Shown one piece after another: positions 1 to 23,026 of a DNA stretch of 64,000 nucleotides. The stretch's first letter is position 1. Every line of letters begins with the position of its first letter. The DNA is from Nitrosococcus watsonii C-113 (lineage in GTDB: Bacteria > Pseudomonadota > Gammaproteobacteria > Nitrosococcales > Nitrosococcaceae). A program made the translations under genes and the position numbers. The notes under the pieces were generated by a model that saw only the letters and a program-made list of their open reading frames with translations, ran no database searches and was not told the DNA's origin. The stretch is from the NCBI RefSeq assembly GCF_000143085.1, contig NC_014315.1, forward strand, positions 2,138,001 to 2,202,000, written 5' to 3'.

Positions 1-298
1 TTTTTGTTTAGCCGCCACTGCCCTCACCCCGGACGGCAGCTCTCTGGCTAGGCTCCGATGAACTGCTGTCCATCATTGAGCGCTTGCCTCCACTTGGCAC
101 CTGCCCCCTATAGCAAACATTGCTCCTTTCCAGTCGGATTTTCAAAAATGACGGGAACCCGGATTTTTAATTCAAGCGCTTCTAAGGAATTGGTGTAAGG
201 ATAAGCGCAAACCTAATAAGGCCTGGTGCTGCCCGAATAGTTGCTGAACGGTAAACTCCACCAAGGAAATATAAAGCCGCAATAACAGGACTTTAAAC
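1..298. other. Left-edge stretch without a recognisable gene
   Basis: No convincing gene. A short open stretch on the plus strand enters from the left edge and ends at a TGA at about 59-61. Its last residues (LTPDGSSLARLR) could be the C-terminus of a protein starting outside the window, but it is too short to identify. The rest is AT-rich, with no ribosome binding site plus ORF combination worth calling. Confidence 0.3.
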
Positions 299-781
299 TT
301 AATGATTATGATCTTCCTTGCTGGCGTCAAGCTGAAGCTTTGGAAACCGATAGTTTGCAAAATTACTGTGGCAGGCAACACATAATTCCGTTAGTTTATA
401 ATAATAAAACCCAACTGATTCTATATGTTTCTCTTTTGCTACGTGCTGAAGCATTCCAGCATATTCATGAAATTTTTTATCAAGGCGAAAGAAGGATTTT
501 GATATTTTATTCACCAGCTCATGTTTTTGTTCCTTGGTGATCGCTTGCTTTAAAATAAAGCTGTTTTTCATTTTTTCTGCGATATCCGAGACCTTTTCCA
601 AGTTACCTGAAACGTACGCGGTAATTATTGATTGCATACCTTCTTCTAGAGCCCGCATTTCTTTTCCAAGTAAAGCACGAAGCTCTGGTGATAAACTTTT
701 AACTGATGAATCCGCATATCCAATTGATAAAGCAAAAACCAAACTGAAAGATATCAATATTATTTTTACGGTATTTAACAT
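299..781 (-). CDS. Exported monoheme cytochrome c'/c556-like protein
   Basis: 160 residues. An N-terminal hydrophobic signal peptide (residues 1 to about 23, ending near GYA-DSS) points to export to the periplasm. The rest is predominantly helical and charged, with one heme c attachment motif, CVACH, at residues 134-138 near the C-terminus. A C-terminal CXXCH after a helical bundle is the layout of the cytochrome c'/c556 group; assignment to that group is inference, since I see only the heme motif and the helical character. The ATG at 781 is supported by a GAGG seven bases upstream. The last residues are acidic and His-rich (KEDHNH). It stands alone, so its redox partner cannot be read from context. 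Confidence 0.75.
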   Translation of the reverse strand: MLNTVKIILISFSLVFALSIGYADSSVKSLSPELRALLGKEMRALEEGMQSIITAYVSGNLEKVSDIAEKMKNSFILKQAITKEQKHELVNKISKSFFRLDKKFHEYAGMLQHVAKEKHIESVGFYYYKLTELCVACHSNFANYRFPKLQLDASKEDHNH

Positions 782-1048
782 ATTTGGACCTCGTATTTCT
801 TACATAATGCTAACAATAATAAGCGCTAACGAAGGATAGGGCAGTTGGCGCCCCGCTGACCATTTTATTGAATATATGTCTTATTAATACTCATTAAGGA
901 AACGCTTTTAATACCTACTAGCATTAGACTGGATGGTATGGTATATACTAAAAATACAATTAAAGATAATATGTATCTCAATTTAATCAAGGGTATGCGC
1001 CTCCTCTCCCTGATTGAACCAAGAGGTTTCCAGCGCACGGAGAAATTT

Positions 1049-1414
1049 ATGAAGTTTTTACTGATCTGTATCGTTGTTTTAACTACAATAACACTATCTA
1101 CAGCATCGATGGCACGAGTTGGACCTTGGGGTTGGCTCGATAAATCTGTCTACTCGGAATTGAACGACCAAGACTGGAAACTACTCCGTTCCACCGGACG
1201 GGATATCCTGAATAATCATCCCAATGGCACTATCAAAAGCTGGAGGAATGAAAATACCGGGGCTTCTGGAAAAATCGAGGTATTAACAACAGAGCATAAG
1301 AACGGTATGTTATGCCGTCGGACCTCATTCGAAACTAACACTGCTAATTTCGACGACAGATCGGCGTTTCTGCTTTGCAAAACCGAAGATGGAACCTGGA
1401 AAGTTGCAGATTAA
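1049..1414 (+). CDS. Small secreted protein, rickettsial 17-kDa surface-antigen-like
   Basis: About 121 residues when started at the ATG at 1049. A longer reading from 938 would place 37 non-signal-like residues before the hydrophobic segment, so the internal start is preferred. The N-terminus (MKFLLICIVVLTT) is a clear signal peptide ending near SMARVG. The C-terminal half has the pattern of the RT0821/17-kDa surface antigen C-terminal domain: a W-R-N-E-N-TG-SG segment, an NG-M-LCRR segment with a Cys, and a final CKTEDGTWKV. Function of that domain is unknown; it is usually found in small outer-membrane or periplasmic proteins. No operon partner. Confidence 0.6.
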   Translation: MKFLLICIVVLTTITLSTASMARVGPWGWLDKSVYSELNDQDWKLLRSTGRDILNNHPNGTIKSWRNENTGASGKIEVLTTEHKNGMLCRRTSFETNTANFDDRSAFLLCKTEDGTWKVAD

Positions 1415-1816
1415 ACTATCATATCAGGGTTAAACGCATGCAGGGATGCACTGCATAGTCCCCCTAGCCGAGGCATGAGCGCATCAAGCGCGAGGACCAA
1501 AGAAATCCAATAGAGCAGGGATTGAAGCCCTAACGAGAGTATTTGCTTCTGCTCGCCGGCATTTCTCTTTATCCAATGCGCGTTCCACCGCCTCAAGATA
1601 AGGGTAGAAAGCACCGCCAAAGCCGCGCTAATCGGCCCGGCAGACTGTGAATAATATCAAGCGATAATATTCGGTACTCGAGCCTCATCGAGCATTGCCA
1701 GTTCGCGTGAAAGGCGGGCAAGATATCCGATCACCTTTCAATGTCTATGCAACTAGGAAACCAGGCTCTTAGGAGTAGCCATCAGGCTGAATTACTTTTA
1801 TGCTGGTATATAGAGA
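1415..1816. other. Gene-free stretch; possible degraded fragment
   Basis: No intact gene. On the minus strand about 48 codons are open from roughly 1629 down to a TGA at 1484-1486 (ending ALLDFFGPRA). The composition is protein-like, but there is no start codon and I do not recognise a family, so it may be the tail of a deleted gene. The remainder shows nothing I can name. Confidence 0.2.
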
Positions 1817-4800
1817 TTATACTCGTAGCAACTCAATCACAACATTAGTTGACCATAGGTTACCATTCACAACTTGGACTCTTTCAGAAACTTCTGAAAA
1901 ACTTGCAAGCTGATAGTCCACGCTATCCTGGAAATCAAAATAATTTTCTGACGGCTTCTCACATCGTACTTGCCAATAGCCAACCCCTTGATCAAACCTG
2001 GCTTTTAAAGAGGCACCAGACTCGAAATCAATCGTAAGCTTTCTAGAGTGCGGAAGATCCCTTCCGGAGTCATAAATAAAAAGTTCAACTTCTGATCGCC
2101 ATTTTCGCCTAAACCAGGCCCCAGCAAAAGCTTCAAAGTCATCCCTCTCTTTCCAGTCATGGTGAGCACGGTTTCCATCTCGGTCTTTAGTCTTGAATAA
2201 CGTGGTGACCAAAATTTTGGCGTCTGGCATCAATTGGGTTTTCAAAGGTTCTAGCAACGAACCAAGCAGGGCAATTGAAGCTGGGCTTTGAATGTATCGA
2301 TCGCTGTAACAGATTTTGGTTATCTTGCTATTAGCCAGTACTTCTCTTGCTGAACCGTTGCTCTCATCTAGCAACTTCCAGAATCTGTTACCAAAACCCT
2401 CAAGACAGCCGTTTATCTCAGCGTTTATTTCCAGATCCTGTACGTCTTTCCCAGGCTGATTCATCCACTGATCGATGTTAATTTCCTTTAACCCTAATTG
2501 CTGCTCAGTCGTTGTCTCTACTACGAGCTTTTCCATCTGATGCCAACGATCGCCCGGTGTCGACGCTGAAGAAAGTCTGGAAGCAATAGTAACAACGGAA
2601 GATCCTTTAATAACCTGCGCGACCACAGGAGAATCCACGGGTAACCCGGAACAACAAATCCTTGCTCCGACAAGAGACAAGCGGCATAGGTCCTGTTGAA
2701 GTTCAGTGTCAGCAATATCTGATTCAAGAGCCAGATCAACTTTGATCTCGTCCTGCAGCAAATAATTGTAAATTGCCTTGCGGAAGGCCGGAGCCATCAA
2801 ATCCCAGTCTTCCATTGCACCTTTGAGCCAAAAAACTACACGCTCAGCCCCCTCATTAATGTATTTGCGCAAAACATCCTCGATTGAACCGGGGCAATAT
2901 CTCGCTCCAGGCAATAGTTGTTCTCCTTCAGCAAGACCAACATAGTTCACAAAATTGGAACCCAGCCAATCCAGAGCCGATTTACGATCCAGCAAGTCAT
3001 AGTCATGACGAGTCTGAGAATCAAGCAGACACTCGCTACAGGCCGTATCACAATAGCTACACTCAAGATGATCTGCCATTTTTCTCAACAGCTCTTCAAC
3101 ATAAACCGCTGCGCTGGAAGCAAAACCTGCACCGCCGCTGATCACATCATAGATCTGGATTATCCTAGCGGTCCGCCCATTCTCCAACTTTGTTGGGCGT
3201 GTGGCATACCCCAATTCCGAAGTTGCAATTCCCAAAATCCCTGCTAGCGCGGAACGCAGCGCAACAGCCAGAGTCATTGCAACCGATTTATCCCTTTCCG
3301 AAGCTGGAGACAGGTACTCTCCTGACTCAGGGTTCTTGAGCGTCAACTCAAAAATATCAGTTAAAGCAACCACGCCAATATTCACGTTGGGCGTAATCCC
3401 GCCTGCTCCCTGACAAGGCATGCGTTGATTATTATCATCCTTATCTTCCTTACGGGGCCTGGGTGGATAATGACTACCATTGGGTGTCAAACTCGGTGGG
3501 TACTCTCCTTCTTTCGTCATAGACTCAGCACGCCCACAGGCCAAACAGAGCGCATAGCCTTGCCCAAACTCCCCAGAGCTATGATGAAACACCTGACCAT
3601 TGACGCTGTATGCCATCTGTCCGAGTACTGAGTTTGGCAAAGAAACCTTGCCCGCATTGACAAACACCCAAGCCGCCTCAATCGGTATGAATTTTTGGTG
3701 GTTAATATTATTGGTGACGGGTTCGTAAGCGTCCGTTACAAAACCGGCAGGCTGAAGGACACGTTTGATATTTTTAGGATTTATGGGCGCCCGGCAGTCC
3801 TGGTGATTACACCGAAGCTCAGAATCCCTGATAGCACTTTCTTCATAACTAAACTCACCGCATCGATCGCACCGCCAGGCCCGATCCATTTTTTGGGCTT
3901 CATTTGAGTCAGCATTCAAATTATGCCAATGGAGAGAGACCCCAGCGGAACGAAATACCCGCCCATCTAGTACAATTTCAGCCCCTGGCGCATACTCTCT
4001 GACTGCAATCGCCAGGTTACGCGATGGAAGTCCTTTGTAACGGGATACACTATCTTCCCTATCTTTCCTATTTTTCTTGCTTTGCTTCTTCCCGCGCATG
4101 AAATCTTCTATCGTGAAATTATCGAAGCTAACAACATCCGTTGGGAAACCATACCCCGGTAAAAAGGTACGCGCCGCCAAATCACGAAGCAGATACTCGC
4201 CACAATGACGCTTTTTTTCCATTTCTATCCGCTTGGCATACGGACTATTTGACCTAGCATTACGTTCCCCGGACACCAAATATCGGTAATCGTCCAGCCA
4301 GCGTTTTTGCAAATCCTCTATCCTTTCCTTGGTATTTCTGCGCAATTGCCCAGGAGGTACGCCACCTAGGGCCGTTCCTTTGACTAGACCTTGAATTGCA
4401 TCATCGCAGCCCAATTGGGCTTTGCCGAGCCAAGTAATAAAACGATCACAAAAGGACTTCCCCGCCACACCATCAAAGAACCACTGGGTATCCAAAGCCG
4501 TTCGCTCTGCCTGGGTGTTTCCAACCTCTTCCCGCAGAAAGACAGACAGTAACAGGGAGTTCACATGCCGCTGCACTAATCTCGATGAATTCAAAGCGAT
4601 CCCAGGCGCTGGAATAACAGTTTCAAACGGCCAAGCCGGGTTAGCAAACACCTGTTGATCATGAGGATTCCCTTTACAAAGCGTGTATGCCAGCGCACGT
4701 GATTCTTGGCTTCTGCCTGCCCTGCCTGCACGCTGAAGATAGTTGGCTGGATGAGGTGGGACATTATTCATCACGACGGCAGAGATACCGCCAATATCCA

Positions 4801-7800
4801 CCCCCATCTCCATGGTAGTTGAGCAATTCAGGACATTGATCCGCCCCTTCCTAAAGTCCTCTTCATAGCCACCCAGACGTTCAGCGGACTGTTGGGCCGA
4901 ATGTTCAGCAGTACGATAGTAGAAGCCACCTTCAACGGTACGGTCATTGATGTCTGTCCACAGGTTCAAAGAGCGCAGATCGCGGACTTTTTCATCCTCT
5001 GCAATCTGAGCCCGAACTTTGGCCAGCCCTGGCTCATAGTCCTCCTGGGAACGATCAAAAAACCAGACTTCAGGTAATTCAATTTCATCGCACTTAAAGG
5101 CTTGACGCTCTCTGTCGGTCAATTCAGTAAAATTAATGTGGACAGGTAAATACGGAGTCAGGCCCTTGAAGGTGGTGTCCAATAATTTATAGGTTACTGG
5201 ACAGATATAAGCTTTGTCGATCAATGAGAAAGTGAGCTTATCCCTGCTCAGGAAGAAGCGGTTATCGTCGCTTTTCAGTATATTGTAGGTTCTCGTAAGC
5301 GCCTGCCACGTTTCTCTTAACCACGAGTTCACCAAATCAATATCATCTTTTTTAGACGGATCTAATCCGCTTCCTAATAGCAATAACTTGACCAGGCGTT
5401 GTCTGTGTGCACCGTTGCGAATAAGAGGCCAACGCTTAACACGCCTTTCATCGGGCTCTTTGGAATCAGGCTTACGCAAGGTCTTCGACCAGAAGCGATT
5501 GCCTATCCAGGATCGCCAGCTTTCGTCAAGCTGAATAAAACTATTGTCCCGAACATAAAAATCCAATGCTACCTTGAGGAAATATTTCCAATCATCCCGA
5601 GATAAGCCTTTTTCCTCCCAGTATTGAGGTGTATTTACGATTTTATCCAGACCTTGATATCCAACCTTAACTAACCCCTGGGTTTCAAGACTGTTCTGGC
5701 GCCTGGGACGTTTCATAAATTCCCGGAACAACAACATCTCAGCTAATTTAAAAGGACCATCATTCTCCCCAAAAATTTCTGGCTTTTGCTGCTTGTTATA
5801 AGCAAGAATCGCTTCTTTCAAATCTGTCCTGTGTTTAAGTTCATTTGCCACCTCGTTCCAGCTCAATGAAACAAGTGGTAAAGAAGCCCCCCCCTCAGCT
5901 AACGCCCTTGCCTTTTCCTCAAGCTGCCCAGCTGCTCCTTCCATTCCCATGGCTCTCAATTCATTGGCCTTAACAAACAGATCTTCCGGTTGGATACCTT
6001 CAGTGAGTTGATCCGGCTTAGATTGCGCTAGCTGATGCTGTCTCAAAATATCCACCACCAAGCCGCGCAAGCGACTTCTTTCAGCCTCCTGCTGCATCCT
6101 GATCGCCATCCTGGCGGTTCCTTGCCGGCTATCGGTGAAAGTAATTAACCTGCGACCACGGCCAGGTAGAGATTGGGGGCCGATAGCAGGCGTTCGATCA
6201 TCTTCGTCCTTGAAATCCGGACAATATTCCAAAACAGTGGAGACAGCATTGGCCACATAAAAGGGAGCTCCCAGTAAAGCACGCCGGAAAGGGAGATGCT
6301 GGTATCCCCTGAACTCACACCGACTACAGACAGCCTTAAAATCAGTATTCATGCTCAACAGGACACTGCTATCCGTAGCATGACTAAATTTCCCGGAAAG
6401 CTTATCGAATTTCATCGGAATATAGCCTGCCCGCTCACTCATAGACGGCGATAGAATGAGCGGCACTTTCATGGATTCCACGGGCTGACTTTGATCTTCT
6501 GGAATGTCTTCATCTCCATCTACTTCAGCCTGCAGCGAAAACTCGTCTCCCGCATACGTATCCCATTGGACCAGCTTACCGCTTTTATCCCTTGCTAGCA
6601 GATGGGGCTCGTTGCACTCCTGGCAGAAGCTCAGTTCAAAAACCGGGCTTCCACAATTACAGGTCTGACGCTGGATAACATACACATAACCCAATGGCCA
6701 GTTTTCCTGCAAAGGAGTGCCGATTTTGGCAGAACAATTCCCGTCAAAACATGCCCATAGACCATGGGACGTTCGTTGAAATAAATGTGCTCTTAACTTG
6801 AGGAAGGCAGGCTCTTTATCAGAGGGTCTAGTGCCAGAACAGACATCCAGCCAACGTAGAATTTCATGATAAGAGAATTGCCGAGGTATCTTTTCATTAA
6901 GCCGCGCTACCAGCTCTCTGAGCTTTAGTGGCTTAGGATTGGTCACCAGAATATCCCGCAGCGCCCGTGCTTCCGGCGAGTGGACAAGCGCTTCATAACG
7001 CTCAGGGTGAATACCGGATTGTTGTTCATTAGCAACCGGCATATTTTCCAGAGCATCGAGAGTGATTGATTTTCTTCTGCTTGAAGCCAGGGAGGGTATA
7101 ATCCGCTTCCCGCCAAATACGTCGATCTGATTAGTCGGCACACTCGATAATTCCGATAGAAATTTCTTTAGTGGTTCAGCCGCCTCATCGCCGGCAATGG
7201 TAGCCGAGGTAGCCACAAAACGAACGTCCTTGGATTCTACTCCAAAAACATGCATTACCCGACGTAACTGTAATGCCAACTCCGCCGCCTGGGAACCCAT
7301 ATAAGTGTGGGCTTCATCTAAGATAATCCAGCGCAGGGATTTTCCCGCTTTTGACTTTTCAATGATGGGCGCATCAATCTGACGCACCATCATGTATTCA
7401 AGCATAGTGCCATTGGTCACCAGAATTGGCGCTGGTTCCTCACACAATAACTCACGCGATAGAATTTCATTAGGCTGTCTTGCCTGTTTACTTCTTACTC
7501 TAGCTGCCAGTTCTGGAGTATTGCCGTTATAAAGGCAATAGCGGATTCCTGAACCAAACGAGTGGGTCCAGGCATTAAGGCGCTCTTGCTGGGAGTTAAT
7601 CAGGGCATTCAGAGGATAGAGAAACAAAGCTCGAACGCCAATTAGAGATTTATTTCCTTTTCTCTTGTACTCTTGATAAAGGTTTTCCAGAACGGGGACC
7701 ATAAAACACTCGGTTTTACCAGAACCCGTACCACTGGTGACGACCACGGATCGTTTCTGCTCTAGCAATGCTTTCCAACTTGCCAGTTGATGTACAAAAG

Positions 7801-8104
7801 GATGCCAGTTGGAGCCAAACCGGTAACGGCCGTTAGCCTTCCCATTCAGAGAGTCGACAATCTCTTTGCTGAGCAATGATTCCTTGGTAGCAAGCTCCCC
7901 CATGGTCATCTTTGATTCTTCCCAGCCAAAAGTCTGCTCAAACAGGGGAGAAGCCAGAAACGAACCCTCCTTACCGCATTCCGAGCGCATCAGATCGCCC
8001 AAATGTTCGCGCAGATTTGGATTTGTGATTCCTAAAATACTCAGAGTGGATTCTGCCGAACGGGAAATAGACTGCTCAACCAGGGAGGAAAAATATTTAA
8101 TCAT
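1817..8104 (-). CDS. druE: Giant DEAH helicase with DUF1998-like C-terminus, DruE-like (Druantia defence)
   Basis: 2095 residues. Superfamily 2 helicase motifs are plain: Walker A GTGSGKTE at about 125-132, DEAH at 263-266 (LDEAHTY), SAT at about 300-302, and the motif V/VI stretch around 1090-1130 (MGVDIGG, then QRAGRAGR). Two zinc-ribbon-like Cys clusters lie between motifs and later (CNCG...CQEC; CDRCG...C-x4-C). Near residues 1680-1700 a CSYCDTACSECLLD cluster followed by an LDR-x-AL-W segment is the signature of DUF1998. A single chain of about 2000 residues joining this helicase core and DUF1998 is the hallmark of DruE, the defining protein of Druantia anti-phage systems. Last gene of a three-frame operon, starting 5 bp after the upstream stop. 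In Druantia the helicase is required for phage resistance; the mechanism is not readable here. DISARM is unlikely because there these domains are on separate proteins. Confidence 0.8.
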   Translation of the reverse strand: MIKYFSSLVEQSISRSAESTLSILGITNPNLREHLGDLMRSECGKEGSFLASPLFEQTFGWEESKMTMGELATKESLLSKEIVDSLNGKANGRYRFGSNWHPFVHQLASWKALLEQKRSVVVTSGTGSGKTECFMVPVLENLYQEYKRKGNKSLIGVRALFLYPLNALINSQQERLNAWTHSFGSGIRYCLYNGNTPELAARVRSKQARQPNEILSRELLCEEPAPILVTNGTMLEYMMVRQIDAPIIEKSKAGKSLRWIILDEAHTYMGSQAAELALQLRRVMHVFGVESKDVRFVATSATIAGDEAAEPLKKFLSELSSVPTNQIDVFGGKRIIPSLASSRRKSITLDALENMPVANEQQSGIHPERYEALVHSPEARALRDILVTNPKPLKLRELVARLNEKIPRQFSYHEILRWLDVCSGTRPSDKEPAFLKLRAHLFQRTSHGLWACFDGNCSAKIGTPLQENWPLGYVYVIQRQTCNCGSPVFELSFCQECNEPHLLARDKSGKLVQWDTYAGDEFSLQAEVDGDEDIPEDQSQPVESMKVPLILSPSMSERAGYIPMKFDKLSGKFSHATDSSVLLSMNTDFKAVCSRCEFRGYQHLPFRRALLGAPFYVANAVSTVLEYCPDFKDEDDRTPAIGPQSLPGRGRRLITFTDSRQGTARMAIRMQQEAERSRLRGLVVDILRQHQLAQSKPDQLTEGIQPEDLFVKANELRAMGMEGAAGQLEEKARALAEGGASLPLVSLSWNEVANELKHRTDLKEAILAYNKQQKPEIFGENDGPFKLAEMLLFREFMKRPRRQNSLETQGLVKVGYQGLDKIVNTPQYWEEKGLSRDDWKYFLKVALDFYVRDNSFIQLDESWRSWIGNRFWSKTLRKPDSKEPDERRVKRWPLIRNGAHRQRLVKLLLLGSGLDPSKKDDIDLVNSWLRETWQALTRTYNILKSDDNRFFLSRDKLTFSLIDKAYICPVTYKLLDTTFKGLTPYLPVHINFTELTDRERQAFKCDEIELPEVWFFDRSQEDYEPGLAKVRAQIAEDEKVRDLRSLNLWTDINDRTVEGGFYYRTAEHSAQQSAERLGGYEEDFRKGRINVLNCSTTMEMGVDIGGISAVVMNNVPPHPANYLQRAGRAGRSQESRALAYTLCKGNPHDQQVFANPAWPFETVIPAPGIALNSSRLVQRHVNSLLLSVFLREEVGNTQAERTALDTQWFFDGVAGKSFCDRFITWLGKAQLGCDDAIQGLVKGTALGGVPPGQLRRNTKERIEDLQKRWLDDYRYLVSGERNARSNSPYAKRIEMEKKRHCGEYLLRDLAARTFLPGYGFPTDVVSFDNFTIEDFMRGKKQSKKNRKDREDSVSRYKGLPSRNLAIAVREYAPGAEIVLDGRVFRSAGVSLHWHNLNADSNEAQKMDRAWRCDRCGEFSYEESAIRDSELRCNHQDCRAPINPKNIKRVLQPAGFVTDAYEPVTNNINHQKFIPIEAAWVFVNAGKVSLPNSVLGQMAYSVNGQVFHHSSGEFGQGYALCLACGRAESMTKEGEYPPSLTPNGSHYPPRPRKEDKDDNNQRMPCQGAGGITPNVNIGVVALTDIFELTLKNPESGEYLSPASERDKSVAMTLAVALRSALAGILGIATSELGYATRPTKLENGRTARIIQIYDVISGGAGFASSAAVYVEELLRKMADHLECSYCDTACSECLLDSQTRHDYDLLDRKSALDWLGSNFVNYVGLAEGEQLLPGARYCPGSIEDVLRKYINEGAERVVFWLKGAMEDWDLMAPAFRKAIYNYLLQDEIKVDLALESDIADTELQQDLCRLSLVGARICCSGLPVDSPVVAQVIKGSSVVTIASRLSSASTPGDRWHQMEKLVVETTTEQQLGLKEINIDQWMNQPGKDVQDLEINAEINGCLEGFGNRFWKLLDESNGSAREVLANSKITKICYSDRYIQSPASIALLGSLLEPLKTQLMPDAKILVTTLFKTKDRDGNRAHHDWKERDDFEAFAGAWFRRKWRSEVELFIYDSGRDLPHSRKLTIDFESGASLKARFDQGVGYWQVRCEKPSENYFDFQDSVDYQLASFSEVSERVQVVNGNLWSTNVVIELLRV

Positions 8105-8109
8105 AAATT

Positions 8110-10119
8110 TTAATTACCTCTTTCAGTCGAGGCATAACTCAACAGACAATATTGATACACTGGTTCAAACCAGTGTAAATAGAAATCCCGTATCTGCCTC
8201 AGGAAGAAAATAACTTCAGGACTATCACAAAAAAAATCTTCAAATTGGGTTCTTCCTATTGCAACAGAAGCTGCAAATGCAGGCAGATAAACGACAGCGT
8301 TGCGGTAATTCATTTCGGGGACGATAGAGATGGGGCAATTAGTTTGCTGTTTAAACCAATCTTTCAGCGGGTTACCGCCATACTCTGGCCAGCGCTCATC
8401 ACTTCGGACTCTAATAAGATCCTGATACCAGATTTTTATTCCGTCTATCATCGATGAAAAAGCCATGGGGGGTGGTAACTGGCTGCGAGAGAGCCAAGAC
8501 TGAACATCACCGCCGTAGACTGGAAAAACATTCGCCAATTGTTCATACATCGACTCAAGCAAATCAGGCAAACATTCGGTAAGTATACCTTTTGCAGACA
8601 AAAATTCTCCCATGCGTTCTCCAGCTAGCTTCAGTGAATGAAGGGAGAAGAATTCCCAAAATATTGGAAATTCCTTCTCCATCCGCACCAGAAAAGTAGG
8701 ATTTACATCAAATTTTAAGATAGCCATGGCCAGAGCATCTGGATGCCTGATCAATGCGCGCCAAACTTCGAAAGTTGCCAGAGGCAAGTAACCATAATGA
8801 TCATAAAGAGTCTTCAAAAACTGCCAGCCGCTGTGAGACGGCTCGTATGCCATGGCGTCTAAAATTGAAGTAAATGCATTCATACCTGCATTTTTATCAA
8901 AGGCTAGGGTTGCCTTCTGCAAGCTTTTTATTTCGGCTAAATCATCGGGGCGAACCACGCCACCGGGAAATAATATCGGACGAAATGAAATTGCGGAATT
9001 CTTCTCAGGGACAATCAACCAAGGGCCGTTCTTATCAAGAAAATATGGAAACTCAAATTCTCCGGTTGGTACACCTTCACTTAAGCGAGGGCGCAGCTCC
9101 GCTGGTTTACGCTCCGGCTCACTCAATAGCATAAGGGTAGGCTTGGGGTATTCACCAGCTCTCTCCAATAGATTCGAGATAAACAAAATATGGCGGCCAT
9201 AATCAATGGACATTTTCTTGGAGTACCTCAAAATACGGTATAAATATTCTTGACCACCACCACAAATCCTAAGCTCAACCGTCTGATCAATACCATCCTG
9301 CAGCGATAGCAGATTTTCAACTTCTTTTTTAATATTGAACAAGCTCACCTCCAATGGGCAATCAATTGCTGTGTAGGACCACGAGTAATGAGCCTGGGCT
9401 GTATTATTACCCAAGAGACGCAATTCTAGTTCATATTTAATAGGGCAACCTTCTTGGGCAAATAAGTACACGCGGCTTCCCAATAAACCTGAAACAGACA
9501 AAGTACGGGATAGAAAATTCTGATTTTTATCAAACGCCAGCGCTCCACTAACGGGGAATGGTAGTTTGATATGAACAGGATCTTTCGCTAGATTTGAAGT
9601 AAGAGCAATAGTGACATGAGCTGGCGGAATATCTTTCTTTTTAAGCAGTAATTCCGTACAGTCATCATGGTATACTCGGCGACAAGAAACTGATTTATCC
9701 AATATATGATACTGGTAGGAAAAGATGGTATAAAAGAGGATACTACCCTGATTAGGTTGCTCTCCTTTCTTAAGTTTTATTTTCATATCTACCGGCAAAA
9801 TGCCAACCCGTTTGCGCAGCAATGTTTCACCCTGGTTATTGCGAACCGAAAGATAATGATTGCCTAACTGCTGCTGCACTGAAAATTCGCTAAGAGGCTT
9901 TCCGGATAAATATACATTAGCTCCCTGTGCGATCAAACTCGGATCAGATTCTTCTGACCAATCAATCTCCGGCACTCCGTAAAAAGCTATTGCAGGGTAA
10001 CTTTGCCACTCAACGGTTTTACCCTTTAACGTCGGCATAATATTGGCGGAGGAAAATACTCCGGTCTTGATGCGATGAGTTTCATCAGCACCAACAATAA
10101 CGGTTACTGCTCCTGTCAC
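8110..10119 (-). CDS. Large uncharacterised protein upstream of the DruE-like helicase; probable C-terminal part of a DruH/YjiT-like protein
   Basis: 669 residues from a GTG at 10119; AAGG lies eight bases upstream, so independent initiation is possible. No enzyme motif, signal peptide or membrane segment is evident. The N-terminal half is beta-rich (MTGAVTVIVG...) and the C-terminal half looks helical with many aromatic and Leu residues. The stop is 5 bp before the helicase start, so the two genes are almost certainly translationally coupled. It is in exactly the same frame as the 422-residue gene upstream: only the TAA at 10162-10164 and 14 sense codons separate that gene's last residue from this GTG. 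That suggests either one ancestral DruH/YjiT-like (STY4851-type) protein split by a nonsense codon, or two cooperating subunits. Function is unknown beyond presumed participation in Druantia defence. Confidence 0.6.
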   Translation of the reverse strand: MTGAVTVIVGADETHRIKTGVFSSANIMPTLKGKTVEWQSYPAIAFYGVPEIDWSEESDPSLIAQGANVYLSGKPLSEFSVQQQLGNHYLSVRNNQGETLLRKRVGILPVDMKIKLKKGEQPNQGSILFYTIFSYQYHILDKSVSCRRVYHDDCTELLLKKKDIPPAHVTIALTSNLAKDPVHIKLPFPVSGALAFDKNQNFLSRTLSVSGLLGSRVYLFAQEGCPIKYELELRLLGNNTAQAHYSWSYTAIDCPLEVSLFNIKKEVENLLSLQDGIDQTVELRICGGGQEYLYRILRYSKKMSIDYGRHILFISNLLERAGEYPKPTLMLLSEPERKPAELRPRLSEGVPTGEFEFPYFLDKNGPWLIVPEKNSAISFRPILFPGGVVRPDDLAEIKSLQKATLAFDKNAGMNAFTSILDAMAYEPSHSGWQFLKTLYDHYGYLPLATFEVWRALIRHPDALAMAILKFDVNPTFLVRMEKEFPIFWEFFSLHSLKLAGERMGEFLSAKGILTECLPDLLESMYEQLANVFPVYGGDVQSWLSRSQLPPPMAFSSMIDGIKIWYQDLIRVRSDERWPEYGGNPLKDWFKQQTNCPISIVPEMNYRNAVVYLPAFAASVAIGRTQFEDFFCDSPEVIFFLRQIRDFYLHWFEPVYQYCLLSYASTERGN

Positions 10120-10161
10120 CCGAGCCGCCTTACATCCAGCAACTAATTCATTTTCATAAAT

Positions 10162-11430
10162 TTATCCGCTTTCCACTTCTATGCGGGATCGATCGGGTAG
10201 CAGTAATAGCACCTCATCAGCCTTCGAGTTGAAGCTGGCTTGCCCACACCACAGCCAGCGTCCATCTCTTAACTCAAAACCTACCGGAACCTCATTAATT
10301 CCGACTGAGCCGTTATCAATGGGCCGCTGTGCAAGCACCAAGCCACCATATATGGCAACCAAAAAGAGTTCTCGTCCTGGTTCTCTGCGTTTGCACCTAA
10401 TAAGCCGCTGACGCGGCCTTACTTTGGCTGAGCGATGCTCGAGAACTGCATAGCCAGCGCCTAGGCTAGCTATCTGATCGCCGCCTTCGCATATCCCCAA
10501 CTCAAAACGGCATGATGCAGGTTCAAACGAAAGCTGGAAGATAATTTCAGCTGGCAAAGAAATCTCTACCTGAAGGCAATCAGGTCTCCGCTCCAGCCAA
10601 AAGTGAGAACAACGCACACTATTATCAGTACGGTGCTGCGCACGCATTCCCTTGTCAGTTGCGGAACGAAGCAGGCCATTCAGCAGCTCACTGCCGGTAG
10701 TATCATCAAGAGGGATAGGAAAACTGTCACGCCACCTTGGATTTTTATCATCAAGGTAATTTACCGGCCCTTCTTTAGTATCCAAAGCATAGAGCCGAAC
10801 AAGCGAAACCAGCTGATCCGCCATGGTGGCTATCAGATCTACAGAGGTATCCTCCGAGAATACTTGAGGAAGATTTGAACGCTTAATAAGCGTCTCGGTA
10901 AGTTGCCGGGTAGTGCAAACTGAGGATTCGGTGCAATCATATTCCTTTAATATTCGGGAAAATAATGATTGGAAGCGGCTACCTTCTTGCTCGAGAACCC
11001 TGAATGGAAGCCCGCCTTCGCTGAATACAGATCCAAGGAAGTTTCTGCGCTCAGATTCATAGTAACGAAGCGGGCGATTCCAATAACTTTCAAGCCCGCG
11101 TGGCACTACATTAGCCAGCTCTGAAGGAGCCAAGCTGAATTTCAAGGAACACCAAACCCGCTCCCAACTCCAACCAAAACTGCTTTCATATTCCCTTCGG
11201 TACCACTCGGCACAAAAAAGGGTAAAACAAGCATTTGCGTCTATATCCTTAAAAAACCGGTTTGATTTTCCGATCGCTGAAAGGGCTTTTTTCAGGTCTA
11301 TATATTCCTCACTACTGACTTGATACTCATACAAAGTCCTATGATCCGGGAAGCGCAGACCTCGCCGTTGAAGGAAAGAGCGCAGCCATAATGATAGTGT
11401 AGATATAGATAGCTGATCCGATATCCCCAT
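10162..11430 (-). CDS. First gene of the Druantia-like operon; N-terminal part of a DruH/YjiT-like protein
   Basis: 422 residues. The N-terminus (about 12-45: SLWLRSFLQRRGLRFPD then LYEYQVSSEEY) and the middle (RPLRYYESERRNFLGS, then EGGLPFRVL, about 120-148) resemble the start of the YjiT/STY4851 family as I remember it. That family is encoded directly upstream of a DruE-type helicase, as in the E. coli yjiT-yjiV remnants of the immigration control region. Full-length members are much longer than 422 residues, so this frame alone looks like the N-terminal portion. The continuing part is the in-phase 669-residue frame downstream. No transmembrane segments or catalytic motifs are seen. This is the first gene of the operon, so the promoter should lie in the AT-rich DNA just upstream of 11430. 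Confidence 0.55.
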   Translation of the reverse strand: MGISDQLSISTLSLWLRSFLQRRGLRFPDHRTLYEYQVSSEEYIDLKKALSAIGKSNRFFKDIDANACFTLFCAEWYRREYESSFGWSWERVWCSLKFSLAPSELANVVPRGLESYWNRPLRYYESERRNFLGSVFSEGGLPFRVLEQEGSRFQSLFSRILKEYDCTESSVCTTRQLTETLIKRSNLPQVFSEDTSVDLIATMADQLVSLVRLYALDTKEGPVNYLDDKNPRWRDSFPIPLDDTTGSELLNGLLRSATDKGMRAQHRTDNSVRCSHFWLERRPDCLQVEISLPAEIIFQLSFEPASCRFELGICEGGDQIASLGAGYAVLEHRSAKVRPRQRLIRCKRREPGRELFLVAIYGGLVLAQRPIDNGSVGINEVPVGFELRDGRWLWCGQASFNSKADEVLLLLPDRSRIEVESG

Positions 11431-12258
11431 AAATACCCTCTACTCACCGGTTTAGAAGATTCTGGTTAATTGTTCTGATGTATATTGCTACTCAAATAAG
11501 TGTATTTTTCCATCCTGTTAAAGTAATTATCCTCTTGATATTTATGTTTTTTAACCAGATCATACGGCGATCGCTGCCACGAATCCAGCGACTATATGTC
11601 TATTTTTTTTTGTGCATTACGATCGCTACCCGCAGACCAGCATTATTGATATATAATCGGCAAATCCGCGCGATTCTTAATCGCAACCTGTTCGATCAAC
11701 GAATACAGTCGCCACTGTCTGCTCATTACATAAACCATCTCCTTTTATGTAATTTTGCATCGCATCATTTCAATTTATAGTGGTTCTCCCTGGGCTTGAG
11801 GTCGGCCAGACATAAGATAAGTAGCGATAGGCAGGGATTGTTTGGAGTGAGAACGAAAATTAAGAGAGAATCTTTTGCCCCCACAAATATAAGCGATCAG
11901 GGCAGCAGTCGAATTGGTAATGCTGCGATGGCGGCTATGCTCGATTTAGTTGAACAAGAAAAGAAGCTATCGAATCAGAGTGATGAGTCGGAGGCTTTAC
12001 TCAAAAAAAGTCAGAAATAAGCGCTTTCCAGACAACTGTGAGATATGATAATGATGAATCAACATTGCCCGAGGTGGGACGAAAAACTAAAAGTTCACTG
12101 CGGTCATTAAATACAGGATAGCACTTAAAATTATATACTTTGTTCATTGAAATTATGCCACACCAGGAGATTTTTACGCCCTTTGTGGATGTAAAAAATT
12201 CGGCAATTATAATAAACGCCTGTGAGAGCAGCATCGATAAAAGCAAGTCCTGCCGCTT
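11431..12258. other. AT-rich gene-free region upstream of the Druantia-like operon
   Basis: About 0.8 kb with no gene I can support. Short ORFs exist, such as a 74-codon frame at 11796-12020 on the plus strand from TTG, but none has a good ribosome binding site or recognisable protein character. The part nearest 11430 is AT-rich and is the likely promoter region for the defence operon. The part near 12259 adjoins a truncated hydrolase gene, so some of this DNA may be decayed coding sequence. Confidence 0.4.
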
Positions 12259-12928
12259 TTACGTCGCCTCATATACCAAATATCGCTCTGCCCATGCAAC
12301 CAATACATTCGCTACAAAAATTGCATCTTCTCTTTGAGATAGTAAGTGATCAGCATTATCCAACGATACAAAACTTTTAGGGTGTTTTGCAGCTTCGAAA
12401 ATATGCCGGGCATGCTCAATGCTCACCGTATTATCTTTGGGGCCATGAAAAATCATTAGCGCTTTTCGAAGCGACTTAACTTTCTGAAGTAAGCGATACT
12501 CGCTCATGGGCTGGATCGCTAGGAGCATTAATCGTAGCCACGGCCAAGGTTTCAGGAATTTCTTCCGCTGCTGCCAATACCGCCGCCCCGCCTAAACTAC
12601 GTCCAATAAGTAGCTGGGGAGCCTGATATTGCGCCCTCATAAAGGATACTGCTTGCACCAGATCCGCAATGTTGGAAGAGAAATTAGTATTGCTAAAATC
12701 CCCCCCGCTATTGCCCAGTCCAGTAAAATCAAATCTCAAGACTGCTATTCCCCGCTGCGCCAAGGTATTACTAATACGTGTCACCGCGAAAAAATCTTTA
12801 GAGCAGGTAAAACAACGGGCAAATAATGCATAGCCTAAGGGTATCTTGTCTGACCGCTCTAATCGGGCTGCCAATGGATCGCCCCGATAGCCAGGAAAGC
12901 TTACACGTTCTGCTCGCACGGTGGACAT
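12259..12928 (-). pseudogene. Alpha/beta hydrolase broken by an internal deletion and frameshift
   Basis: Two frames make up one serine hydrolase. The first (12928 down to 12476) starts with ATG and carries the core fold: an [13 protein letters not shown] segment and the nucleophile elbow GRSLGG with Ser at about residue 111. It continues to INAPSDPAH and then runs out of frame. The second frame (from about 12507 to 12259) carries the rest: KSLRKALMIFHGP-x-D (acid residue region) and DNADHLL (catalytic His). Between PSDPAH and SEYRLLQ, where relatives of this group have a few dozen residues, almost nothing is left, so the break looks like a deletion near 12500-12510 and not a single-base error. 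Many relatives carry an OsmC domain after the hydrolase; here the gene ends soon after the His, so that domain is absent. Probably non-functional. Divergent from the rhomboid gene, which is also broken. Confidence 0.75.
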
Positions 12929-13022
12929 TTCTTTCCCCTTTTATATCGACCAGGAATCTGTAGCTATCGTTGCTGAAAATGCCATAAAGTCAAATATTAA
13001 TGTAAGAGAAGGAAACAGAGGA

Positions 13023-13701
13023 ATGATCCCCGTCAGTGATAACTATCCTGTTCAGCGCATCCCTATTGTTAATTGGATTCTGATTGGAACCTGCGTGCTT
13101 GTCTTCTTCTGGCAGTTAAGCCTGCCACGGGAGGGATTTCAAGCTTCAGTTATTCTATTTGGACTGATTCCCAAGGCTTTGATGGATGCGCCCTTGGGCC
13201 ATCCTCAATTGCTGATTTCTCCCGTACTCAGCCTGTTTACCTCCATGTTTTTGTACAGTGGCTTCCTGCACCTGTTGGATAATATGCTCTATCTTCATGT
13301 ATTTGGCAATAACGTAGAAGACTCCATGGGGCATGGCCGCTTCATCGTTTTTTATTTACTCTGCGGCGTGGCTGCGGCGCTGGCGCAGGCTTTTATAGCC
13401 CCCGACTTCCACGATCCCCATGGTGGGGGCTAGCGGCGCCATATCCGGCATCCTCGACGCTTATCTGCTCTTGCACCCCTTCGCTCAGATCAAACTGCTG
13501 GTACCCTATTTCATCCTCTTTTTCGTTTGGGTGCCCGTCTGGTTCATGCTAGGTCTCTGGTTCTTGTTTCAGCTCTTGCAATCGGTAGCGACTCCGGGGG
13601 ATGAGGGCAGCATAGCCTTCGCCGCCCATACTGGCGGGTTCATGGCCGGCGTGCTCCTGTTGCCTGTATTTAAACGCTCCGAAGTCAGCCTACTCCGTTA
13701 G
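13023..13701 (+). pseudogene. Rhomboid-family intramembrane serine protease with a +1 frameshift
   Basis: Starts at ATG 13023 with AAGGA nine bases upstream; an ORF start at 12921 would add a non-conserved leader. Several hydrophobic segments follow, with HLLDNMLYLHVFG and a GHGRF-x-FYLLCG segment typical of this rhomboid subfamily. The first frame dies at a TAG near 13432. Shifting by one base near 13405-13415 restores the expected IPMVGASGAISG, which holds the catalytic Ser of GASG; AHTGGF with the catalytic His follows. The extra base is probably a T in the GACTTCCACG stretch. The residue after SGIL is Asp where Gly is usual, suggesting relaxed selection and making a pure sequencing error less certain. 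Rhomboids cleave transmembrane substrates; here the protein would be truncated before the active site unless the frame is corrected. Confidence 0.8.
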
Positions 13702-13718
13702 CGTTTCACGCTTTTTTT
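13700..13718 (+). terminator. Rho-independent terminator of the rhomboid gene
   Basis: A short hairpin, AGCGT-TTC-ACGCT, overlaps the rhomboid stop codon and runs directly into a run of seven T. It lies on the correct strand and between convergent genes. The stem is only five base pairs, so strength is uncertain. Confidence 0.5.
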
Positions 13719-13824
13719 CTAACCAAGTTAAAGGGGAATTCAACCTTCTTGGGATTTATCCGCTTACCCATGCAAGCATATTTAGCCTTATCATTTCCCC
13801 AACATCGATGCTTATATGCCACAT

Positions 13825-14757
13825 TTATCGTTGTTGAAATATCTCCTCTATCCTTCCAAGCGCGCCTATGGTGGCCTCGGAGGTTGCTACTGGCTGCGGG
13901 GGAACCCGCTTACTAAGAGCACTTGTAGAAGCTGCCCTAGAAGGATCTATCTTTCGCCAGATTTGTATTTCATTAAAATCTATTTCCCCGACATCGTTAA
14001 CATGCAACGATGTGGTTATCCTATTATCTCTCTCTATTAAAATGAGGGCGCTGCCCACATTAGGAGGTTGTGTTACTACTAGGACAGATCCCTCATCAAC
14101 AAAAGTGCCGGATAAATTAACTATAAGAGGATCTTCACCAGAAATAAAAATCGTAACCTCCTGCGAGATATTATTTTCGCTTATGCGCATGGCACCGGTA
14201 ACAGCTATGTTTGGGTTTTCACTGTCAAAAACGCTTTGGTCGGAAAACTGAATAGAAAGCCTCTCTAGCGTATAAGTCCCCTCAAGGCTGGAGGGATTTT
14301 CCGCACAATAAGATTCTTTTAGCATGGTAAGGCGGGTGAGATCGATAGCGCCAGAACCAAAACCGAGCATGGAGTTATAAACAGCCTGTCCTTTATTACA
14401 GGAAGAGAAGCTAAATTCAACGGTACCCCATTCCGTCATCACCACTCCATTGGGATCAAAATCAGAACCAAAGACCCCTCCTTCCGTCACAAAGGCAGGT
14501 ATCACTACTTTATCATTCACGATATTACCAGCGCCAAACAGCCACATCTGATTCTGATTAGAATCATAGCTAAACCAGGAGAACACCATTCGATCATTCT
14601 CAAGCACTTCGATGAAAAATCCCTCGCCACTACGCTCCGGGTCAAACCATTCACCACTATGTCCCGATTGAATGGGAATCTCCGCGTAAGCAATGGTAGG
14701 TATGAAGAAAAAAATTAGTGCAAAAGATGTAAATATGCGGACTAATCTCTTGTTCAT
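13825..14757 (-). CDS. Secreted protein with an N-terminal SGEWFDP-RSGEGF repeat-type motif
   Basis: 310 residues with a signal peptide (residues 1 to about 25, ending AYA-EIP). Just after cleavage comes SGHSGEWFDPERSGEGF, then an aromatic-rich FSWFSYDSN-x-NQMWLFG segment. This module recurs in many exported proteins of gammaproteobacteria, often as tandem repeats, and has no assigned biochemical function that I know. Two Cys pairs could form disulfides (SSCNKG and SYCAEN regions). The remainder is beta-rich with no catalytic motif; the C-terminal 40 residues are low-complexity and rich in Ser, Ala and Pro. Likely periplasmic or extracellular. Convergent with the broken rhomboid gene and alone in its transcription unit. 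Confidence 0.6.
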   Translation of the reverse strand: MNKRLVRIFTSFALIFFFIPTIAYAEIPIQSGHSGEWFDPERSGEGFFIEVLENDRMVFSWFSYDSNQNQMWLFGAGNIVNDKVVIPAFVTEGGVFGSDFDPNGVVMTEWGTVEFSFSSCNKGQAVYNSMLGFGSGAIDLTRLTMLKESYCAENPSSLEGTYTLERLSIQFSDQSVFDSENPNIAVTGAMRISENNISQEVTIFISGEDPLIVNLSGTFVDEGSVLVVTQPPNVGSALILIERDNRITTSLHVNDVGEIDFNEIQIWRKIDPSRAASTSALSKRVPPQPVATSEATIGALGRIEEIFQQR

Positions 14758-15182
14758 GACTCACCTCATTTAGCCTAATTTCTAGGCCAGAAACAGAAAA
14801 AAGCTTATGTTCAAAAATATCAAAGCCGTTGCTTATTTATAATAATACTTTCCTTGCTTATCACTGTCCGTGACATATTACCCCGATAACCGTGAAGTAC
14901 TGGTGAGTCGAAATAATTATTATTGACGAAGGGAGATTTCTGGAGAGGTATTGGATAATTCTTTATTAATGCGGATTTTTAAGCTAGCCCTGCTAATCCT
15001 GCCAGAGTTATTGGGGGCGCTAAATGGCCTATGCCCACAGAGTTCATGAACAACCGTTCATTCAACGGACACAACATCGTAATTACATCAGTTCTGGATA
15101 ACTAGCCGGGCATACCCAGGAGAATAATCTGCGGGTTGTGGTCAGGTAAAGCCGAGGGCTGGCCAAATGACTCTCTTGTAAG
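14758..15182. other. Gene-free stretch upstream of the secreted protein
   Basis: About 425 bp with no supported gene. The first part should hold the promoter of the minus-strand secreted protein ending at 14757. The last bases run into a palindromic repeat. No family could be recognised in any frame. Confidence 0.4.
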
Positions 15183-15216
15183 GTAGGGCGGGATGCGCTA
15201 TGCTTTCCCGCCCTAC
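15183..15216. repeat. Palindromic intergenic repeat, copy 1
   Basis: Inverted repeat GTAGGGCGGGA / TCCCGCCCTAC around a 12-base centre containing TGCGCTATGC. A near-identical copy lies at 16080-16113, and the bases just outside also match (TAAG before, TGCT after). This is the form of REP-like elements scattered in intergenic DNA of many gammaproteobacteria. It could form a strong hairpin. With copy 2 it brackets the two small genes at 15298-15767. Confidence 0.75.
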
Positions 15217-15297
15217 GTGCTGACCTATCGCCCAAGCTTAGTGGTACCGATAAAGGAGTCGCCACTGAAATGGCTTGTTGGGCAAATGCCACTTTAC

Positions 15298-15528
15298 TTA
15301 GCTTCGCATCAAGAGCGCCTCTCGCGCTTTCTCAGGCAAATCCAAAAAAACAAAGAAGGATGCGGGGTAAAGGTAGTCTTCCATCGATTCATCCACTATC
15401 CGCAGATAATCTTCTTGGGCTGCGATATTATCAGGAAGCACTGGGTACACCTTCCCCTTCTCCAGGTCATCACACTCTCTGCTCTCAATACAAAGCGCAA
15501 AGCGGGTATTCTGTCGTGGCTGTACCAT
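15298..15528 (-). CDS. Small conserved protein of unknown function (second of a pair)
   Basis: 76 residues when started at the ATG at 15528 (MVQPRQNTRFALCIES...). An upstream extension to 15594 would overlap the preceding gene and adds nothing conserved-looking. The sequence has the feel of a widespread family of about 75-residue proteins: FALCIES, then LEKGKVYPVLPD, then IRV/IRI-VDESMEDYLYP and a hydrophobic end. These usually follow a small partner gene. Predicted soluble and acidic, with no catalytic motif. It begins 5 bp after the stop of the upstream 77-residue gene, so the two are co-translated. A toxin-antitoxin role is possible but unproven. Confidence 0.55.
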   Translation of the reverse strand: MVQPRQNTRFALCIESRECDDLEKGKVYPVLPDNIAAQEDYLRIVDESMEDYLYPASFFVFLDLPEKAREALLMRS

Positions 15529-15533
15529 AGCGT

Positions 15534-15767
15534 TTAGTCCAATAATTGCTTGATCTTCATCTTTCTCTTGCCGATACCGTGAGCTTCGTACCAATGCACC
15601 TCTGCCATGCGGATACTACCATTTTCCAGCTTCACCGCCGCAATGCCTTTGAGCTTGCGCCATCGACCAGGACCATACTGCTGGCGTAGACGCATGATAT
15701 CGCGGATGCGGCTTCCCACCGCGATGACTTCCACCTGCTCTATTTTCCCTATGACCTCGAAATGCAT
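15534..15767 (-). CDS. Small conserved protein of unknown function (first of a pair)
   Basis: 77 residues, basic and soluble. Recognisable elements are IEQVEVIAVGSRIRD, then LRQQYGPGRWRKLKG, then the tail HWYEAHGIGKRKMKIKQLLD, a pattern seen in short conserved hypothetical proteins across bacteria. The composition (Arg/Lys-rich, compact beta-strand alternation) would suit a small nucleic-acid-binding or antitoxin-like protein, but I have no direct evidence of activity. It is followed after 5 bp by the 76-residue gene, and the pair is enclosed by two copies of the same palindromic repeat, which may mark a mobile or hotspot unit. Confidence 0.55.
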   Translation of the reverse strand: MHFEVIGKIEQVEVIAVGSRIRDIMRLRQQYGPGRWRKLKGIAAVKLENGSIRMAEVHWYEAHGIGKRKMKIKQLLD

Positions 15768-16079
15768 CTGCTGTTCTCATACCAGTATCTATCGTCCCCA
15801 TGCCGTCCAACGGGATGCAAGCCGGGGGGTGAAACGCCCGACTTGCAAGAAATGAGCGCACAACAATGATTCTACTGTTTCCCTGTCGTTAGTAGCTTTT
15901 ATTTCTTTAAAATCCGGTAAAGCCAAAATTGCAAACTCCGAAGATAGACCTAAATCCTGGTTTTTCAATTAATAGGGATATCCCTCCTTCCAATTACCAC
16001 TGCATATGAACCTATCCATACAAACAATTGTCTTCCCCCCTTCTGTATTTATTTCTTTATAACATTCTGTCAAAGTAAG
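15768..16079. other. Gene-free stretch between the small pair and repeat copy 2
   Basis: About 310 bp with no gene that I can support. The part next to 15767 should contain the promoter of the small gene pair. Reading frames over the gene pair extend a little into it but look like shadows. The rest is AT-rich and leads into the second palindromic repeat. Confidence 0.4.
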
Positions 16080-16113
16080 GTAAGGCGGGATGCGCTCCGC
16101 TTTCCCGCCCTAC
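16080..16113. repeat. Palindromic intergenic repeat, copy 2
   Basis: GTAAGGCGGGA / TCCCGCCCTAC around a 12-base centre containing TGCGCTCCGC. It differs from copy 1 at one arm base and in the middle of the loop; both loops keep GCT...GC symmetry. That compensated loop difference (ATG versus CCG at the tip) is typical of mobile or structurally constrained palindromes. It lies in the gap downstream of the lipoprotein gene at 16159. Confidence 0.75.
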
Positions 16114-16158
16114 ATGCTATTCGTTTACCAACTTTCTGCTTACTGTCTCAAAAAGCCC

Positions 16159-16551
16159 CTATGGGACACGATACCAATCTTTTGGACAAGTATCTGAATT
16201 AGGATCATAGAATTCAAACTGATATTTCCTTCCATCCACTATAAAGGTAATAACGCAAGTGACGCTGTTGGTGGTTTTCTCCGAAAAAATCACATTGATT
16301 TGAGCTATTCGTAGAGTTTTAAATTCATCATCAAATATCGCGCATCTCGACGAATTATCTTCTCCTACCGATTCCACTGCTGAAACGCAAGGGGTCACTT
16401 CTAATGGCTCGCCAGTTTTAGGATCAACTGGAACAATTTCACCCTCTTTCACCTGGATACCGACAATCGGTTCGGGGGCTTCTTCAAGTTTAGGTTTACA
16501 ACCCACAAGCAGAACCGATAAGCACATAAAAAATAATAGGATAATTCTCAT
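16159..16551 (-). CDS. Small putative lipoprotein
   Basis: 130 residues. The signal peptide (MRIILLFFMCLSVLLVGC) ends in a lipobox LVGC, with Cys18 as the predicted lipid-anchored residue, so the protein is probably attached to the inner or outer membrane facing the periplasm. After the lipobox follow a Pro/Glu-rich spacer (KPKLEEAPEPIVG) and a compact domain with four Cys (TPC, SRC, VTC, DTC) that may form two disulfides. I do not recognise the domain. Monocistronic on the minus strand, about 85 bp downstream of the large FecR-TPR gene's stop. Confidence 0.6.
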   Translation of the reverse strand: MRIILLFFMCLSVLLVGCKPKLEEAPEPIVGIQVKEGEIVPVDPKTGEPLEVTPCVSAVESVGEDNSSRCAIFDDEFKTLRIAQINVIFSEKTTNSVTCVITFIVDGRKYQFEFYDPNSDTCPKDWYRVP

Positions 16552-16635
16552 GGCGTTATTCCTTTTAGGTGTTATTTTAGTAATGAAAGCATATCTTTAT
16601 ATATAATTTATTAAAAATCGCCTCCTTTTTTAAAG

Positions 16636-20013: not shown

Positions 20014-20066
20014 ACGGGCTTTCTGCCTCTCTAGGAGTACCCTATATTTTTTTATAGCCTTGCAAC

Positions 20067-22265: not shown

Positions 22266-22276
22266 GAATCTTTCCC

Positions 22277-22305
22277 CTGTTAGGGATAGGGTTATCGCCT
22301 ATAAT
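22277..22305 (+). promoter_or_regulatory. Candidate promoter of the crp-like gene
   Basis: A perfect TATAAT at 22300-22305 lies about 77 bases before the crp-like ATG. The hexamer 17 bases upstream (CTGTTA, 22277-22282) matches the -35 consensus at only three positions. It sits between divergent genes. No obvious TGTGA-N6-TCACA operator was found here. Confidence 0.35.
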
Positions 22306-22381
22306 TCTGTACAGTAGTTTGTTGAGAGGAATATTTCTATCTGAACTACCGCAGCTGGGTACCCCGGCAGGATGACATGCA

Positions 22382-23026
22382 ATGCCTTTAAACACACTAT
22401 CCCCCATAGCGTTTTCTCCAGAGGATCTGGCGTTGCTTCGTGATTGTGGCATTACCAGAACTTACCCGAAGCATACGATCTTGATTCATGAGGGAGATCA
22501 CAGCGATTCGCTGTATATCATTTTAAGCGGTAAGGTGAAAGTGTATATCAGCGATGAGGATGGCAAAGAGGTCATTCTCCGGACTCAAAAAGCAGGAGAG
22601 TATTTTGGAGAACTGGCGCTGCTTGATAAGGGACCTCGTTCGGCCTCGGTAATGGCCCTTGAAAAATCCCGCTTATCAGTGGTTTCAAAGACTGTTTTTA
22701 ACCGCTGCCTTACCGAACATCCCGATTTTGCACTTAAACTTCTTTGCGCTTTAACACAACGAATTCGTTCCCTGACCGAAAATGTCAAAAACTTAGCATT
22801 ACTGGATGTCTACGGTCGAGTGGCACGCACCCTTTTAGACCTTGCCATTGAAAAAGAAGGTAAACTGATTATCGAAGAGCGCCCTACCCATCAAGAGATT
22901 GCGCAGAGAGTAGGAGCTTCCCGGGAAATGGTTAGCCGCATTATGGGAGATCTTGCCACTGGTGGCTATATTGAAGTGACCTCCAAAACCATTATTATCC
23001 CCCATCGCTTGCCCTCTGCCTGGTGA
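22382..23026 (+). CDS. Crp/Fnr-family transcription regulator, probably cAMP-responsive
   Basis: 214 residues. A cyclic-nucleotide-binding beta-roll (about 30-110) contains GEYFGELALLDKGPRSASV. Its Glu (GEL, 77) and Arg-Ser (86-87) match the residues that hold the phosphate and ribose in E. coli CRP, and there is no N-terminal Cys cluster of the FNR iron-sulfur type. A long dimerisation helix (~115-145) leads to a winged helix-turn-helix with THQEIAQRVGASREMVSRI (169-187), close to CRP's recognition helix. Divergent from the CHASE2 cyclase, which could supply its ligand. It may be the genome's main Crp or a dedicated paralogue; the window cannot decide. Confidence 0.85.
   Translation: MPLNTLSPIAFSPEDLALLRDCGITRTYPKHTILIHEGDHSDSLYIILSGKVKVYISDEDGKEVILRTQKAGEYFGELALLDKGPRSASVMALEKSRLSVVSKTVFNRCLTEHPDFALKLLCALTQRIRSLTENVKNLALLDVYGRVARTLLDLAIEKEGKLIIEERPTHQEIAQRVGASREMVSRIMGDLATGGYIEVTSKTIIIPHRLPSAW

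Follow-up and report, generated by a model that had tools for sequence, protein, structure and literature searches.

Druantia type III is defined as a system of DruH and DruE only (PMC13192584; PMC13316683), and anti-phage activity dependent on both genes has been reported for relatives of the locus described here (PMC13192584, PMC13316683). For the Escherichia coli system, the sensor is likely to be DruH, with a J-like/Ig-like scaffold and a dimerisation that enhances nuclease activity, and DruE is a dimer that loads on 3' ssDNA as a helicase and carries a PLD nuclease; defence is lost when the ATP site of DruE or residues ~63-137 of DruH are substituted (PMC13192584). In Mycobacterium smegmatis, both genes are required; DruH is toxic in the absence of DruE, whereas DruE by itself is not (PMC13316683). 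Among open-licence PMC papers, none was found that names both Druantia and Nitrosococcus, and the matches listed in such papers for a DruH with a premature stop are all unrelated by title.

A Druantia type III locus in Nitrosococcus watsonii

The window (the whole stretch of 64,000 nucleotides of N. watsonii C-113 that was analysed) belongs to a genome of 3,373,286 bp in 3 contigs, with a completeness of 100. The features of the locus, in window coordinates, are:

1817..8104, minus strand: druE, encoding a 2095-aa SF2 helicase with a Zn module and a C-terminal region
8110..10119, minus strand: C-terminal part of druH, 669 aa if restarted at GTG 10119, in the frame of the N-terminal part
10125..10132, minus strand: Shine-Dalgarno-like TAAGGCGG, 5 nt before GTG 10119, which could be chance
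10162..10164, minus strand: in-frame TAA, codon 423 of druH, from translation and the genome profile search (present in 0 of 33 relatives)
10162..11430, minus strand: N-terminal part of druH, 422 codons plus the TAA
1571..11690, no strand: stretch missing in the close relative G003 (blastn; ~93 bp there)

The first-pass annotation had called three minus-strand frames here, taking the largest for a 2095-residue DEAH helicase with a DUF1998-type Cys cluster and the other two for parts of one YjiT/STY4851-type protein, in an arrangement closest to DruH-DruE (type III). The coordinates are correct, as is the 5-bp spacing (8105-8109) between druE and the 669-aa frame on the same strand, and the profile searches bear out the assignments. 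The 2095-aa protein matches DruE3 of PADLOC (PDLC00037, 2553.6 bits) over 3-2091, its full length, whereas the best DruE1 and DruE2 models reach 529 and 370 bits; its Pfam domains are PF00270 (DEAD), PF00271 (Helicase_C) and, at residues 1613-1693, PF09369 MZB (the MrfA-type zinc module). DruH3 is the sole PADLOC family matched by either small protein, the 422-aa part covering profile positions 3-416 of 1100 of PDLC00049 (542 bits) and the 669-aa part positions 438-1098 (781 bits); likewise, the two parts align with 1-404 (390 bits) and 424-1090 (543 bits) of the 1090 positions of NF038336 (NCBIfam YjiT_fam). Since the scores range from 390 to 2554 bits, chance is excluded for these family assignments. 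Solved relatives are available for DruE (PDB 9tu7-9tuc) and DruH (9tud): the DruE profile (A4) aligns with 9tu7 over 2072 positions, and the 422-aa part matches 9tud_A 'DruH' with an E-value of 7e-15. A plain sequence search with the C-terminal part of DruH alone returned no solved relative, but its profile (A3) did recover 9tud_A, over residues 452-987.

By these matches the locus is Druantia type III. The first-pass annotation had remarked on the lack of a DruM-like methylase and of DruA-D, and indeed DruM, DruF/G and DruA-D have no PADLOC match among the 13 window proteins scanned; the absence is no peculiarity, however, because DruH and DruE make up the complete known type III set, as this type is defined (PMC13192584; PMC13316683). 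Druantia types I, II and IV were rejected, as DruE3 models score far higher and type-specific partners are missing among the proteins scanned. The DISARM, Dpd, BREX and Cas3 readings were also set aside: their models score far below DruE3 and align with no more than the helicase core or zinc region that such proteins share. Judged from its sequence, DruE is intact: compared with relatives, it retains the Walker A, DEAH and motif VI residues and the zinc cysteines, the conserved H.R and DQG..YW residues are present in its C-terminal region, and its 8 departures at the most conserved columns all fall outside the motifs shown.

An in-frame stop codon in druH

The two druH parts are one reading frame, a relation that the first-pass annotation missed. 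Translation of 8110-11430 meets a single internal stop, a TAA at 10164-10162, with 14 sense codons between it and GTG 10119, and a genome-wide DruH profile search returned one match over 3-1098 with '1 TAA' inside. The stop, at codon 423, lies ~38% along druH, which would encode a DruH of ~1106 aa if read through; DruH is not one uninterrupted protein here.

The comparison set comprised 33 related loci (L016-L048), not all independent (judging by length, the contigs of L036, L037 and L046 appear to be those of L003, L002 and L004, and P. luteola is represented by two records, L016 and L026). The N-terminal part of DruH is 45-57% identical to 26 of the 33, and in all 33 a single open frame, 1097-1179 codons long, spans both parts. 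With an in-frame TAA here and 33 unbroken relatives, calling this defence operon intact would be unwarranted; the first-pass identification of the type of locus holds. Scans at the levels of order, class and phylum found 21 other genomes with a DruH match. Of these, one (G537) has stops inside the match, another (G486) is matched in the N-terminal region alone, within a frame of 306 codons, and several more are matched in part. In E. coli, druH of the L017 type was matched in 629 of 5426 genomes and covered to at least 80% in only 218: breakage of DruH is common in that species.

The stop column, in the alignment with the 33 relatives, is an unconserved residue in an indel-rich region. The TAA apart, the C-terminal part is free of stops and frameshifts; at columns with at least 90% conservation among relatives it shows 8 departures, mostly conservative changes, and the N-terminal part shows 1. 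Because there is no other damage and most of the departures are conservative, the C-terminal part seems to have been under selection until recently, or to be so still; the pattern is consistent with a break of recent date and little, if any, relaxation. The nearest relative, Methylomicrobium sp. wino1 (L018), has 1 such departure in the C-terminal part and 3 in the N-terminal part. The window is less similar than wino1 to 32 of 32 other loci in the C-terminal part, 21 of 32 in the N-terminal part and 24 of 32 in DruE, which, the loci not being independent, gives only a hint about selection on the C-terminal part.

The joined read-through protein was modelled with AlphaFold2 (26 sequences, mean pLDDT 80.6, pTM 0.49). 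In this model the break, at residue 423, falls within a predicted strand (416-430) of a beta-domain, with the next strand at 433-446 (pLDDT 76-79). Residue 452 of 9tud aligns with about residue 452 of the window protein, so that the numbering roughly coincides there, and the first Ig-like domain of E. coli DruH spans residues 257-464 (PMC13192584); together with the predicted strands, this places the stop inside the first Ig-like domain, and a break within a domain rather than between domains makes a working split unlikely at this site. At E <= 0.001, a fold search with the read-through model yielded 25 PDB matches; most are to tandem Ig/FnIII-like proteins, at TM-scores near 0.1, and they indicate nothing beyond a 'beta-sandwich string'. 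The 50 rows listed (structure library up to April 2026) do not include the solved DruH.

The insert and its neighbourhood

Comparison of window 1-18000 with L064, from G003, by blastn shows matches at 977-1570 and 11691-11862, separated by ~93 bp in L064 and by 10,120 bp here, which indicates that the operon is an insert of ~10.1 kb; druH and druE are the only large frames inside it. The larger matched pieces are 75-92% identical between window and L064, values compatible with the average nucleotide identity of 89.3% given for N. watsonii and N. oceani (PMC7285500). Horizontal acquisition is the best explanation of the operon. Direct or inverted repeats were found neither within the left flank nor within the right flank, the two being searched separately, and a mobile element around the insert was discounted, as repeats marking one were missing in either flank, each searched alone. 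An origin from phage was likewise rejected (DruH relatives in 0 of 50,697 phage records, and none confirmed in viral contigs), as was a plasmid origin (identity stays below 60% in each of 5 plasmid records, which include a chromosome-sized E. coli record).

At the right end of the insert lies a dispersed repeat of ~150 bp (11796-11947), with full or partial copies, 67-74% identical, at 8 listed places in G004. The 30-50-bp repeats at 15172-15227 and 16074-16127 recur dozens of times, at 77-100% identity, both in the genome of the window and in G003. A rhomboid-protease gene (12921-13701, plus strand) is divided by an indel into two frames of 170 and 93 aa, where L064 has a single 261-aa frame at the matching place, and is likely a second broken gene beside the operon. 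An alpha/beta-hydrolase gene (S33-like; 12259-12928, minus strand) consists of two overlapping frames with several large gaps relative to L064, and has probably decayed as well. With both genes apparently broken, decay seems to be under way near the operon.

Farther on (16636-23026) are genes for a TPR/FecR/TonB-barrel-like protein, a CHASE2-adenylate cyclase and a divergent CRP-like regulator. The cyclase and the regulator match PADLOC Pycsar models via common domains only, and the set looks like a cyclic-nucleotide signalling group, not Pycsar. Among the neighbours scanned (these three and the rhomboid and hydrolase fragments), there is no other anti-phage system. By contrast, defence genes lie near DruHE in all three relatives examined: a type I methylase upstream in L018, a type I specificity subunit and PDC-S06 in L019, and JukB and an AriA-like gene in L022. 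L019 (6806-8608) and L020 (6787-8583) have, directly upstream of druH, a gene of ~600 aa with weak HEC-05/PDC-M55C matches, possibly an accessory partner of Druantia III there, for which no counterpart was seen in the window.

Interpretation of the interrupted druH

The locus is probably best understood as a chromosomal Druantia III system on an acquired insert of ~10.1 kb, the druH gene of which carries one recent nonsense codon, leaving the system inactive or impaired. By analogy with its relatives, intact DruH would sense infection through a phage baseplate or tail protein, dimerise and activate the pathway, and DruE would load on 3' single-stranded DNA and cut it via its C-terminal PLD-type nuclease. 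A DruH ending at residue 422, in the middle of the first Ig-like domain, would leave DruE without its sensor partner. By alignment, the sensor surface falls on the 422-aa piece and the dimer/ATP region on the 669-aa piece; with the two apart, neither alone should suffice, and an inactive or weak system is the most likely consequence, the strain having probably no Druantia III immunity or only weak immunity. Loss of DruH with retention of DruE would be the tolerable order of decay, since DruH alone is toxic in M. smegmatis and DruE alone is not (PMC13316683).

Translation might instead stop at the TAA and restart 42 nt on at GTG 10119, giving a sensor-surface chain and a dimer/ATP chain that assemble and work. 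This GTG is the first in-frame start after the stop, and the TAAGGCGG before it has a duplex energy of -7.6 kcal/mol, against -6.6 for the druH site and -7.1 for the druE site, a strength that 16 of 554 operon start codons attain and that is found at the aligned codon in 0 of 33 relatives; moreover, the C-terminal part is otherwise undamaged, and the 687-aa DruH3 model of PADLOC (PDLC00042) matches this part only. On the other hand, a site as strong or stronger occurs within 60 nt in 3 of 33 unbroken relatives (L022, L023 and L033), and so may arise by chance; the split itself is found in 0 of 33; the restart would begin within the predicted strand 433-446, the break being inside the beta-domain; and the count of conserved-column departures relative to wino1 is 8 to 1 in the C-terminal part and 1 to 3 in the N-terminal part. 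A working two-piece DruH is unlikely on balance, but, if real, would provide the sensing surface and the dimer/ATP region already separated from each other.

An error of base calling or assembly, the DruH of the strain being intact, would account for a single stop in an otherwise intact and well conserved gene, and two adjacent genes are also broken relative to the close relative. Yet sequencing errors of the substitution type are rarer than indels, and the genome, with its 3 contigs and completeness of 100, looks finished, making such an error distinctly improbable. If the TAA were read through or recoded to give full-length DruH, an open frame before and after a single stop would also be expected, but relatives have no stop at that column, the residue there is unconserved, and a TAA with A as the next base normally terminates translation efficiently; this reading is highly improbable. 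The preferred reading remains a sensor gene interrupted by a recent nonsense codon. As to annotation, the locus is one more example of Druantia III, its host being probably a marine ammonia oxidiser, and should be called interrupted; it also offers a natural instance of DruE retained in the absence of a full DruH, in agreement with the toxicity reported for DruH alone.

Comparison with known systems

The closest counterpart, in Methylomicrobium sp. wino1 (L018, NZ_CP024202.1), has adjacent druH and druE in the same order and strand, with identities of 56% for the N-terminal part of DruH, 50% for its C-terminal part and 65% for DruE, but its DruH is one open frame of 1105 aa and a type I methylase gene lies upstream. 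The E. coli Druantia III system (PDB 9tud, 9tu7-9tuc; PMC13192584) shares the two families, and both DruH parts match 9tud; its DruH, distant from that of the window, is one protein of 1119 aa, and the system is linked to Zorya II, whereas Zorya has no PADLOC match among the 13 window proteins scanned. The M. smegmatis system is also two-component, with DruH and a DEAH helicase, but has a DruE of 1667 aa and is intact and experimentally active (PMC13316683). YjiT of the E. coli K-12 immigration control region is a DruH-family gene that is broken too: K-12 strains retain 1548 of 3330 nt (46%) of the L017-type druH, the rest being unmatched, whereas the window keeps both parts of druH and the full druE.
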